A stretch of 64,000 nucleotides of DNA from assembly GCF_030227115.1 (NCBI RefSeq), contig NZ_JASSUA010000001.1, positions 2,108,001-2,172,000 on the forward strand, read 5' to 3'. The position numbers and the translations under genes are program-made. A model generated the notes under the pieces. It searched no databases. It saw only the letters and a program-made list of their open reading frames with translations, and was not told the origin of the DNA. Source of the stretch: Marinobacter sp. SS13-12 (GTDB lineage: Bacteria; Pseudomonadota; Gammaproteobacteria; Pseudomonadales; Oleiphilaceae). Below are positions 23,702 to 48,854 of this stretch, in pieces (position 1 is the first letter of the stretch; every line of letters begins with the position of its first letter).

Positions 23702-23984
23702 GTAGGTCGGATTAGCCGAAGGCGTAATCCGACACCCGGTAGCCTGATAGGTATGGTGCCTGGCCCGGCGGCAGGGGTACCTTTTCTTTGGAAAAAGAAC
23801 TCGCTTCGCTCAGACACCTTTTTCTGGCAGAAAAGGTAGCCCTACCCCCGGGCCGATTTCGGCTTTTTGGGTGGCTTTTGTATTTGTCGGATTACGCCTT
23901 TGGCTAATCCGACCTACGGGGGAATGGTTCGCCTTGGGGAGTTGTAGGTCGGATTAGCGTCGCAACGCGGCGCGTAATCCGACA
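23702..23984. repeat. Composite repeat: REP(+) / long hairpin / REP(-) / REP(+), copy 1
   Basis: Three REP palindromes lie at 23702-23734 (+), 23885-23917 (-) and 23944-23984 (+). Each is built from GTAGGTCGGATTAGC, a short self-complementary loop, and GTAATCCGACA; '+' is this orientation. Between the first two is a hairpin with arms 23762-23787 and 23829-23854 around the core GGAAAAAGAACTCGCT. The same order recurs at 34370 and 47513. It fills the gap between the SLC13 permease and the beta-CASP gene. Confidence 0.9.
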
Positions 23985-24025
23985 AAAATCGGGAGAACAG
24001 TCTTTAAATAACAAGGAAGGTTTTG

Positions 24026-25504
24026 ATGATCGACATAAAACACCACGGAGCGGTGACAGGCGTAACCGGTTCCTGCCATGAACTGGTTGTTGGCAACTCC
24101 GGAATTCTGATTGATTGCGGCCTGTTCCAGGGCGAGGAAGAGGGCAATGGCGCCACTGCCTCGGATCTTTCCATTGAGTTCCCCATCAGCCACATCCGCG
24201 CGCTGGTGGTCACCCATGTACACATCGACCATGTCGGTCGTATTCCCTATCTTCTTGCGGCCGGGTTTGAAGGGCCGATTATCTGTTCGGAGCCTTCGGC
24301 CATCATGCTGCCGGAGATTCTTGAGGATGCCTTGAAGATTGGCTTTACTCGAGACAGGGAACTGATAGAACGGGTGCTGGGGCTGATTCGGTCCCGGCTT
24401 GTGCCGGTGCCTTATGGGCAGTGGCATTCTGTCTTTGGTGGGGACGGTGATGGCGACGATGAATCGCTTTCGATTCGGTTGCAGAGGGCCGGGCACATTC
24501 TGGGTTCGGCGTATGTGGAATGTGAAGCGGAGAGTGACGGCGAATTTGAGCGGATTGTGTTCAGTGGCGACCTTGGCGCGCCCCATGCGCCGTTGTTGCC
24601 GGAGCCCCAACCGCCGGAACGGGCGGACCGGGTGGTGATTGAGAGCACCTACGGTGACAAGGACCATGAGAGCCGGGAGAGCAGGCGGTACCGGCTGAAG
24701 GCGGTGTTGGAGCACGCGCTGGAGGATGGTGGGACGGTGTTGGTGCCGGCGTTCAGTATTGGGCGGACGCAGGAGTTGCTTTACGAGATTGAGAGTTTGA
24801 TTCATGAGTTTGGGGGTTCCGCGGTGTCGGATTACGCGCCGCAGGGCGGCGCTAATCCGACCTACGTAGGTCGGATTAGGCGTAGCCGTAATCCGACATC
24901 CCGGCTTACCTGGAATAACCTTGAAATCGTCGTCGACTCACCCCTGGCCGCCACCTTCACCCGAATCTACCGTGACCTCAAACCTTTCTGGGATGCCGAA
25001 GCCACCGAACTGGTCAACCAGGGCCGGCATCCGTTGTCCTTTGACCAGCTCACGGTCATCAACAGCCACGACGACCACCTCAACGCCGTCGAGTACCTGG
25101 TCAAATCACACCGCCCCTGCGTGGTATTGGCCGGCTCCGGCATGTGTGCGGGTGGTCGGGTGGTGAACTACCTGAAAGCCATGCTGGCAGATAAACGCAA
25201 TGACGTTTTGTTTGTGGGCTACCAGGCCAAAGGCACCCCGGGTCGGGATATTCTCACTTATGGGCCACGCGGTGGCTGGGTTGAGCTGGAAGGCGAGCGT
25301 TTCGATATCCGCGCCCAGATACATCAGGTGGGTGGTTACTCGGCCCATGCAGGGCAATCGGATTTGGTACGGTTCGTGAGCGGTATCGAGCGGCCACCCT
25401 CGGAAATCCGCATTGTGCACGGGGATGCGGGCGCCAAAGAATCCCTGAAAAGTCAATTTCATTCCGTCGGGCTAAAGGGGATAATGATCCCCGGTTTGGC
25501 CTGA
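24026..25504 (+). CDS. MBL-fold beta-CASP hydrolase (RNA-specificity type) with an in-frame REP insertion
   Basis: A 492-residue metallo-beta-lactamase/beta-CASP protein (YSH1/TTHA0252-like). It has the metal motif 'THVHIDHVG' (about 61-69), 'GHILGSAYVE', 'FSGDLG', 'ESTYGDKDH', 'VPAFSIGRTQELL', 'VDSPLAATFTRIY', 'GSGMCAGGRV' and 'GGYSAHAGQSDL'. The family cleaves RNA or other phosphodiesters. Residues about 268-291 are encoded by an inverted REP pair and fall between the 'TQELLYEIESLI' helix and the 'VDSPLA' strand, where homologues have a short linker. The reading frame stays open. ATG 24026 has AAGGAAGG five bases upstream. Whether the protein still folds is unknown; the insertion is in a surface-loop-like position. 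Confidence 0.87.
   Translation: MIDIKHHGAVTGVTGSCHELVVGNSGILIDCGLFQGEEEGNGATASDLSIEFPISHIRALVVTHVHIDHVGRIPYLLAAGFEGPIICSEPSAIMLPEILEDALKIGFTRDRELIERVLGLIRSRLVPVPYGQWHSVFGGDGDGDDESLSIRLQRAGHILGSAYVECEAESDGEFERIVFSGDLGAPHAPLLPEPQPPERADRVVIESTYGDKDHESRESRRYRLKAVLEHALEDGGTVLVPAFSIGRTQELLYEIESLIHEFGGSAVSDYAPQGGANPTYVGRIRRSRNPTSRLTWNNLEIVVDSPLAATFTRIYRDLKPFWDAEATELVNQGRHPLSFDQLTVINSHDDHLNAVEYLVKSHRPCVVLAGSGMCAGGRVVNYLKAMLADKRNDVLFVGYQAKGTPGRDILTYGPRGGWVELEGERFDIRAQIHQVGGYSAHAGQSDLVRFVSGIERPPSEIRIVHGDAGAKESLKSQFHSVGLKGIMIPGLA
24825..24898. repeat. REP doublet (-)(+) inside a coding sequence
   Basis: Two REP palindromes touch with no spacer: 24825-24865 in minus orientation and 24866-24898 in plus orientation. 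All 74 bases are translated as part of the beta-CASP gene, contributing the Arg/Pro/Asn-rich peptide that includes 'NPTYVGRIRRSRNPT'. It is the only REP in this window lying in the interior of a gene. Confidence 0.95.
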
Positions 25505-26959: not shown

Positions 26960-27328
26960 ATGGCAAAGATTAACGATTACTACCAGAAAAAGCAGCTTAT
27001 GGAAAAGCTCTCTGAAGAACTGGCGAAGCTGGAGCAGGACCAGGCGCTGAAAGGCGAACTTGAATTTGAAAACAAGGTTCGCGAGTTAATGAAGAAGTAT
27101 GACAAGTCGCCGAAAGACGTTCTTCAGATTCTGGGGGCTATTGATCCTTCTATTGCTGGTGCCAAGGCTGATTCCGGTAATGGTAGCCGTGCCAAGCGGC
27201 CGATGAAGACCTATAAGAACCCGCATACCGGTGAAGTGGTTCAGACCCGTGGTGGTAATCACAAGGTTTTGAATGAGTGGCGGAAGAAGCACGGGAAGGA
27301 GACTGTGCAGGGTTGGCAGCAGGATTGA
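26960..27328 (+). CDS. MvaT-family H-NS-like nucleoid protein
   Basis: A 122-residue protein. The N-terminal ~60 residues ('NDYYQKKQLMEKLSEELAKL') form the predicted coiled-coil dimerisation/oligomerisation region. The C-terminal part carries 'KTYKNPHTGEVVQTRGGNHK', the DNA-binding motif of Pseudomonas MvaT/MvaU; the 'RGGN' loop sits in the minor groove of AT-rich DNA. Such proteins silence laterally acquired AT-rich genes and control surface structures. It lies just outside the polysaccharide locus, whose left part contains strongly AT-rich genes, so a silencing role there is plausible but inferred. It stands alone between a terminator and a REP pair. Confidence 0.88.
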   Translation: MAKINDYYQKKQLMEKLSEELAKLEQDQALKGELEFENKVRELMKKYDKSPKDVLQILGAIDPSIAGAKADSGNGSRAKRPMKTYKNPHTGEVVQTRGGNHKVLNEWRKKHGKETVQGWQQD

Positions 27329-48154: not shown

Positions 48155-48236
48155 TGTCGGATTACGGCCCGGAGGGCCTAATCCGACCTACGTAGACCCA
48201 TTGCGGTAGGTCGGATTAGCGAAGCGTAATCCGACA
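48155..48236. repeat. REP doublet (-)(+) flanking the RAYT gene
   Basis: Minus copy 48155-48191 (palindromic loop GGCCCGGAGGGCC) and plus copy 48206-48236, 14 bases apart. It ends 11 bp from the stop codon of the minus-strand RAYT gene. Confidence 0.95.
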
Positions 48237-48246
48237 ACTCACAGGC

Positions 48247-48765
48247 TTACTCGCTCCCAACCCCCTCAAGCTCTGCTTCATTAATTCCCCAATCCACCGG
48301 CAAAACCCCCTCCCTGACAAACCGGTGAAAACTCGAGTACGGCCAATCAATCGCGCGTGCCACATAGCCGTGTTTGACAGGGTTGTAGTGGATATAATCA
48401 ACATGCCGGTTGAAGTCGTTTTCGTCCCTGATGGTGTGTTCCCAGTAGCGCTTTTGCCAGAGTGATTTGGGCTTGCCGGGTTTGCCCGTTGAGTGCTGCT
48501 GGAAACTCTTGGTGAATCCGCCTTTAACCAGGCGCCACCGGGTGGAGTAGTTGGTGTCATCGGCTGGTAACGTCCAGAGGCAGTGGATGTGGTCGGGGAG
48601 GACAACCATCGCGTCGATGGTGAAGGGGCGGCGGTTGATGACGTTGCGGAGGGTAGTTCGCAGGCGTTGGACGGCGGCGGGGTTGTTGAAGAGTGGGGTG
48701 CGGTTGGCGGTTACGACGGTGAAAAAGTAGGTGCCGCCAGGGAGGCGGTTGCGGCGGTAGTTCAT
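48247..48765 (-). CDS. REP-associated tyrosine transposase (RAYT, Y1/HUH)
   Basis: A 172-residue protein from the second of two adjacent ATGs (48765; AGGA six bases upstream). The N-terminus 'NYRRNRLPGGTYFFTVVTAN' is the RAYT signature. 'LPDHIHCLW' gives the HUH metal site (His59, His61), and 'DYIHYNPVKHGYV' holds the catalytic Tyr (about 124). RAYTs are single-domain relatives of IS200/IS605 TnpA that cut REP DNA and are thought to spread REPs. It is bordered by REP copies on both sides and is the only transposase-like gene in the REP-rich zone, so it is the likely driver of the 22 copies here. Confidence 0.95.
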   Translation of the reverse strand: MNYRRNRLPGGTYFFTVVTANRTPLFNNPAAVQRLRTTLRNVINRRPFTIDAMVVLPDHIHCLWTLPADDTNYSTRWRLVKGGFTKSFQQHSTGKPGKPKSLWQKRYWEHTIRDENDFNRHVDYIHYNPVKHGYVARAIDWPYSSFHRFVREGVLPVDWGINEAELEGVGSE

Positions 48766-48823
48766 CATACGTCCTTGTATGGTTTGGTGGTGTTTTTGGG
48801 TTTTGGCAGTTGTGTTTGGCATT

Positions 48824-48854
48824 TGTCGGATTACGCTTTGCTAATCCGACCTAC
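48824..48854 (-). repeat. Single REP copy upstream of the RAYT gene
   Basis: One REP in minus orientation (TGTCGGATTACGC to GCTAATCCGACCTAC), about 60 bases before the RAYT start codon, in its likely promoter/leader region. Confidence 0.93.

Follow-up and report, generated by a model that had tools for sequence, protein, structure and literature searches.

The window (the whole 64-kb stretch of DNA that was analysed) contains the gene of an MBL/beta-CASP/RMMBL hydrolase of 492 aa (24026..25504, + strand), which was identified by its open reading frame and by a profile search that found the Pfam domains Lactamase_B (PF00753), Beta-Casp (PF10996) and RMMBL (PF07521). The gene starts with the ATG at 24026; the longest mechanical start is the TTG at 24023. 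Ribonuclease TTHA0252 is the nearest solved protein by sequence (4.9e-70), and its structure 3idz was the top match in a fold search (TM 0.77 on the query, 0.87 on the target). The HxHxDH motif is present as HVHIDH at residues 64-69, and H64, H66, D68, H69, H157, D182 and H441 of the metal-site motifs are invariant in the 49 sequences compared. By homology to TTHA0252, the hydrolase is a putative RNase. Four NCBIfam models match it, all below their own cut-offs, and its score with NF045584 (294 bits, cut-off = 800) lies outside the range of Type VII CRISPR Cas14 (MBL-CASP). Polysaccharide-type genes lie upstream, a nucleotide-sugar dehydrogenase gene adjoins, and a gene of the MvaT/MvaU family of nucleoid silencers is found two genes downstream (26960-27328).

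REPs are usually regarded as extragenic, the few intragenic ones being taken as accidents, and these palindromes are thought to be mobile. Two REPs of family A, read in the sequence and computed as repeats, are located in frame inside the hydrolase gene on its own (+) strand: REP1, a palindrome of 36 bp with a stem of 16 pairs (GTCGGATTA...TAATCCGAC; 24826..24861), and REP2, of 28 bp (24870..24897). They are joined by CTACGTAG (24862..24869), which represents two GTAG tags head to head (CTAC-GTAG). The spacer has 8 nt here and in three relatives, which brings the two REPs into contact in the window, whereas six other carriers have 26 nt. The sequence-only reading had described two oppositely oriented REPs read through in frame over codons about 268-291, and both the sequence and the repeat computation bear this out: the doublet adds about 24 residues, contains no stop in the reading frame, and spans 72 bases from REP to REP, a length divisible by three. 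Of the eight REP pairs in the window, two (the hydrolase doublet among them) have a length that is a multiple of three, and when single REPs were read in each phase and strand, 67 of the 126 readings contained no stop. The frame can thus be kept, but this does not follow of itself.

There are 42 occurrences of the 9-base half-site GTCGGATTA in the window (0.22 expected from shuffles), and the complete family-A pattern has 117 copies in the genome, as against none for the reversed control. The exact 28-mer of REP2 also exists at G000:C1:518830, and the 36-mer of REP1 was found at one place among the matches listed in its own genome. With imperfect palindromes of 28 and 36 bp, 117 genomic copies, a head-to-head dimer whose tag-holding spacer ends are 89% identical across six loci, and a REP-associated tyrosine transposase (RAYT) in the same genome (NF047646 above its cut-off), these elements have the features of the GTAG REP superfamily. 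They also have those of an in-frame intragenic REP, since the doublet lies wholly inside a conserved gene, keeps the frame and is absent from orthologues. The family-A doublet is common to other Marinobacter, such as sp. HL-58 (L140). A sequencing error was rejected as the source of the insert, because independent genomes (e.g., L140, L145, L151 and L152) carry it in frame as well.

The doublet is accommodated in a loop, here numbered 5 (about residues 262-300; 24809..24925, + strand). In the AlphaFold model of the hydrolase, whose mean pLDDT is 82.9, residues 270-291 fall below 50 and sit between the helix 245-262 and the strand 300-304, and the insert is thus predicted to be disordered. A second stretch of low pLDDT covers residues 35-46. 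TTHA0252 (PDB 2dkf and 3idz), which is the best match by sequence and fold and shares the MBL/beta-CASP fold, has no extra residues between this helix and the DSP strand, and its alignment with the Marinobacter enzyme breaks between query residues 257 and 300. From RTQELL to DSPLA the loop measures 186 nt in the window, whereas it measures 78-144 nt in the 49 measurable orthologues of Marinobacter without an element (120 nt or less in 40 of the 49). The gap expected in orthologues at the insert therefore exists. The refuting case, an unrelated segment of equal length in REP-free orthologues, did not appear among these 49, none of which reaches 186 nt; in some of them, with loops of 126-144 nt, unrelated sequence does fill part of the room.

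Two fates had been proposed for the protein: toleration of a new loop, or a gene on its way to inactivation. Toleration agrees with the gap in orthologues, with the predicted disorder, and with the pattern of change outside the loop in ten doublet carriers, in which 13.5% of codons change the amino acid and 42% of the amino-acid-identical codons differ synonymously. Inactivation found no support in this lineage, as the frame is kept in all ten doublet carriers compared; decay of the gene here was rejected on this ground and on the excess of synonymous over amino-acid change.

The same gene was followed across the genus. A search of 124 genomes gave matches to the N-terminal half of the hydrolase in 115, some only via paralogues; 92 orthologous loci from 91 genomes were read, and the record titles of the nearest relatives name Marinobacter. 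From 95 loci we classified 89 orthologues, leaving aside the outgroups L017, L031 and L033, the second copy L105 and the degenerate L110 and L111. Allowing one to three mismatches depending on class, and with four class-B rows assigned by eye, a palindrome of one of four classes was recognized in loop 5 of 35/89: class A (family A) in 11, class B (GGGGTCAGACCCC, with the related form B') in 18, the longer class E (GGGGTCAGATGAAAA) in five and class C (GCGACTTCAGTCGC) in one. The palindrome is in frame in all 34 measurable carriers, whose loops are 120-321 nt long. No recognized element was found in loop 5 of the remaining 54/89, and thus the palindrome is not needed for the enzyme. Two of the 35 carriers, both of class B, have a broken gene: in L014 a stop stands far ahead of the loop, and in L027 a frameshift follows shortly behind it. 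A TAG stop is found in the short, element-free loop 5 of L018/L144 (M. denitrificans JB02H27), beside GTAG-like bases, and both sides of this stop still align along the whole protein. One genome has two copies of the hydrolase gene about 6 kb apart (L104 and L105; G087:C8).

Loop 5 is not the only site. The turn of a beta-hairpin near residues 22-24 (loop 1; 24089..24097, + strand), flanked by strands 18-22 and 25-29 in the AlphaFold model, is empty in the window, but at residue 23 other Marinobacter orthologues carry in-frame palindromes, of class B in seven tree rows and of class E in five (by eye). Four relatives have in-frame palindromes at residue 42 (loop 2), and one probably has a palindrome at residue 143. 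Because palindromes entered loop 5 at points several codons apart, a single fixed target sequence was rejected. In L029, L032 and L107-L109 another loop, at about residue 170, shows a Gly/Glu/His-rich expansion with no obvious palindrome. The palindromes belong to dispersed repeats: the 15-mer of class C has 37 copies in the carrier genome, and 107-225 dispersed E-like palindromes were counted in each of four carriers tested. The exact 17-mer of the E arm occurs at the hydrolase gene only, in five carrier genomes (seven searched); this hinted at a sequence private to the gene, an idea dropped in view of the related dispersed palindromes. The outgroup L017, from another family of the order, also has a loop palindrome (class D), with a 22-mer present three times in that genome including this copy; we take it to be Pseudomonas-like.

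A gene tree was built without the loop, excluding eight of the 95 loci as short or broken (L014, L018, L027, L030, L096, L106, L110 and L111). On this quick build, in which 43 of 84 inner branches are well supported, the outgroup does not fall on one side of a branch and gains are inseparable from losses, the fewest changes at loop 5 are 10 for A, nine for B, two for E and one each for C and D. When any palindrome is scored against none, the fewest changes at loop 5 are 17; the numbers for loops 1 and 2 are eight and three. The 10 changes of class A were not counted as separate gains, because the 36+28 layout and its phase are the same in three subclades; class A may represent one old gain.

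The gene lies in REP-rich DNA. The window contains 21 of the 117 family-A REPs of the genome (1.6 expected), among them a doublet in the intergenic region 5' to the hydrolase gene (23886..23983) and a single REP at 23706-23733. A RAYT gene, a candidate mobiliser of REPs, was found at 48250..48822 on the - strand (Y1_Tnp; NCBIfam NF047646, 197 bits, cut-off = 80), flanked by REPs at 48156-48235 and 48825-48850, and a second Y1_Tnp match exists about 22 kb before the window (G000:C1:2085801-2086127). This association suggests that a RAYT may have mobilised the REPs. Repeat load and loop content go together across genomes: at least 10 dispersed A copies were found in 11/11 genomes with A in the loop and in 11/78 others, and at least 10 dispersed B copies in 15/18 genomes with B in the loop and in 9/71 others (Fisher test, 1.9e-8 in both cases, ignoring kinship and with in-gene copies included in the counts).

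Density does not account for the choice of this gene by itself. In a census of 93 of the 117 REPs of the genome, all on contig 1, 21 lay inside mechanical ORFs of 120 aa or more (19 ORFs). Among the 18 besides the hydrolase, one has a Pfam domain, of the LysR type (C1:2680408); its REP precedes the HTH domain (135-192), probably by over-extension of the N-terminus, and this case was set aside. The hydrolase is thus the only gene with REPs inside a Pfam domain architecture among these 93 REPs. A similar situation is seen in a relative (G103), in which at least 50 of 69 B palindromes (GGGGTCWGACCCC) are clustered within 866-1015 kb around the orthologue (L235-L241; G103:C1:866000-1015000), many as pairs 27 nt apart near the ends of ORFs. 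The stretches read there hold 52 B palindromes, 28 of them inside 21 mechanical ORFs. A Pfam scan of 10 of these ORFs found, besides the beta-CASP gene, four with a domain above cut-off, the palindrome lying before the domain in each; in the other 11 the palindrome lies within about 16 residues of an end. Since no palindrome was seen inside a domain in the other ORFs scanned, local density alone is insufficient, and tolerance of the loops is the other part.

In the ten doublet carriers, synonymous change in the REP codons amounts to 40 of 654 amino-acid-identical cells (6%), where the same amino acids in other parts of the gene would predict 294, and among 435 windows taken along the gene none shows synonymous change as low. 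In contrast, the amino acid changes in 23.5% of the REP codons, more than the 13.5% in the rest of the gene. With its synonymous sites nearly frozen and its amino acids more variable, the insert stays a REP at the DNA level, and the REPs are conserved as nucleic acid and not as protein. The E palindrome of loop 1 behaves likewise at synonymous sites (3.5% vs 38.1%; 3/423 windows as low). In the six carriers with the longer spacer, identity is 64% in the middle of the spacer (14 nt), 96% in the core of REP1 (86% in the whole), 93% in REP2 and 78% in the gene; the spacer has diverged while the cores were kept, which argues for an old element with a retained core. The REP1 stem is 97% paired, and two pairs have changed on both sides (six cells; 0/500 shuffles had as many, and slid controls had none). 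Its covariation score was reached by 5/500 shuffles, although two such pairs arise in 342/500. These paired changes show in the protein as P to S and G to D. The REP2 stem offered no informative change in this covariation check. The insert had also been called a rare view of a REP becoming protein. This is half right: the REP lies in frame, but its nearly frozen synonymous sites and variable amino acids do not suit a sequence turned protein, and the situation is less rare than supposed, given the several palindrome classes in this gene across the genus and the in-frame REPs already published (PMC3733652).

In the hydrolase gene of the window, the synonymous composition of the coding strand turns from G-rich to C-rich at the REP doublet, and other orthologues with an element show this too. 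At four-fold sites of A carriers, G is 0.59 and C 0.20 before the loop, and G 0.30 and C 0.40 after it; B and E carriers show a similar shift from G to C, but element-free genes go only from 0.41/0.25 (G/C) to 0.35/0.34. The best composition break falls at the loop edge in 18/33 carriers and in 3/49 others, kinship being ignored. In a tree-corrected test with five rows left out, carriers have the larger step (slope 0.169, p = 0.0004, lambda 0.94), also under the strictest model (lambda 1; slope 0.110, p = 0.018), and at eight other split points no slope was positive (t as low as -2.0). The step is not significant in class B alone, the element-free members of the B clade (two) and E clade (one) also show it, and a test on independent pairs gave a median p of 0.625, the differing pairs being so few that p = 0.05 was out of reach. 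Because the step was noticed while looking at the data, it is exploratory; a composition step at the insertion in carriers is suggestive, and would fit less transcription beyond the hairpin.

Based on these results, we propose that an ancestral Marinobacter acquired the family-A doublet in a surface loop of its conserved beta-CASP hydrolase gene, that the phase of the insert was stop-free and its length a multiple of three, and that it persisted because extra residues are tolerated there. In other species this gene, placed in REP-rich DNA in the vicinity of RAYT genes, would have received palindromes of other classes in this loop and others, with gains and losses over time and with elements presumably supplied by RAYT-type mobilisation. 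The hydrolase with its insert would be made and active, and the palindrome would be retained as DNA or RNA, most likely via the transcription or message of its own gene and not for the peptide. To this reading, which starts from the in-frame position, the length gap, the recurrence, the link of repeat load with loop content, the predicted disorder and the synonymous-site conservation of the palindromes, we give a probability of roughly 70%. A bolder form is unlikely: that the REPs are overlapping elements, translated as a disordered loop and conserved as palindromes that attenuate or tag their own transcript (possibly as a substrate of the enzyme), leaving the composition step exactly at the insertion.

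It is possible, though somewhat less likely than not, that the palindromes leave the gene unaffected: REPs may land everywhere, most insertions being lost, and these loops may be among the few permissive places. Neutrality with survivorship of this kind agrees with the position of the elements in loops, with insertion points that vary by several codons and show no fixed target, with the REP-rich surroundings (21/117 in the window), and with carriers that are mostly repeat-rich genomes. However, it does not explain synonymous sites that are nearly frozen while the spacer diverges, nor why no other gene has REPs inside Pfam domains among the 93 examined. The synonymous constraint, for its part, could stem from copying and not from selection on the gene, if switches of template from one arm to the other, or conversion by dispersed REPs, maintain the palindromes. 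We consider this rather unlikely. The two inner stem pairs of REP1 that change in step, the abundant dispersed copies with the same 9-base core and the second copy of the REP2 28-mer point to it; yet the inner stems are partly site-specific (the 36-mer of REP1 occurring once among the matches listed), the exact E-arm 17-mer was found at this gene alone in the five carrier genomes despite the 107 to 225 related palindromes in the four carriers tested, conversion would often alter length and frame, and arm-to-arm repair leaves the one fixed sequence of the outer core unexplained.

Autoregulation would give the palindromes a function: the REP hairpins in the message would be the target of the encoded beta-CASP enzyme, or would attenuate its transcription, and so set the enzyme level. 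The resemblance to TTHA0252, the folding of the insert RNA (-58.3 kcal/mol, z -6.6, vs z 0.26 in one element-free orthologue) and the composition step in carriers are consistent with this, but most orthologues manage without the element, the step was found post hoc, recurs in the small number of element-free genes within two clades and is non-significant for B alone, and the low-power test on independent pairs was not significant; the idea is decidedly improbable. Selection of the insert as a peptide that improves the enzyme, as a new linker or binding loop, is more doubtful still and very unlikely to hold. The frame was kept through long divergence, and acidic residues abound in the spacer peptide of those carriers in which one exists; against this, the REP amino acids vary more than those of the rest of the gene while the synonymous sites are frozen, unrelated classes encode unrelated peptides, and the insert is predicted to be disordered. 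In short, our preferred reading remains entry into a tolerant loop, followed by retention of the palindrome as nucleic acid.

One enzyme gene carries unrelated REP classes across a genus, and the DNA of these in-frame copies is nearly constant while the encoded peptide drifts. Since the number of units at one site varies among close relatives (none, one, two or four), they provide a natural test bed for whether REPs affect the transcript that holds them. M. maroccanus N4 (L152) has four units, and L060, the element-free sister in the gene tree, has a loop that matches that of Marinobacter sp. EhC06 (L191).

Mobile palindromic repeats in coding sequences are known from other bacteria. According to the sections covered of PMC2229807, the palindromic elements of Rickettsia (RPE) are mobile repeats inserted in frame in conserved genes, and a guanylate kinase that carries one is still active, with a changed substrate affinity; the RPE measure 105-146 bp and belong to another lineage, whereas the Marinobacter REPs measure 28-36 bp. 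In Wolbachia, palindromic-like elements are in frame in addA, addB and priA and apparently do not inactivate them, one addA group excepted (PMC4224334); these are another class of element in other hosts, and the parts of that paper covered describe no single loop used by unrelated families. Searches of titles and the starts of abstracts found, among the matches listed, no work on REPs in a beta-CASP gene or in genes of Marinobacter.

The closest precedent is the study of GTAG-tagged REPs (PMC3733652, BMC Genomics 2013), whose covered sections report in-frame REP dimers within genes; dimers or groups, coding for 20-30 residues, make up more than half of the inserts. The same sections describe recB of X. 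campestris and X. oryzae, with different REPs at about the same site, as well as EPS gene clusters of Thauera flanked by REPs, and already propose that loops tolerate REPs. The Marinobacter hydrolase resembles these cases in its GTAG dimers and in their frame. Marinobacter is absent from the main text of that study and no beta-CASP gene is named in the sections covered, which likewise describe no gene shared by several unrelated classes within one genus, no use of several loops, no constraint at the DNA level and no composition step. In-frame REPs were already known; their recurrence in one gene and the constraint at the DNA level look new.
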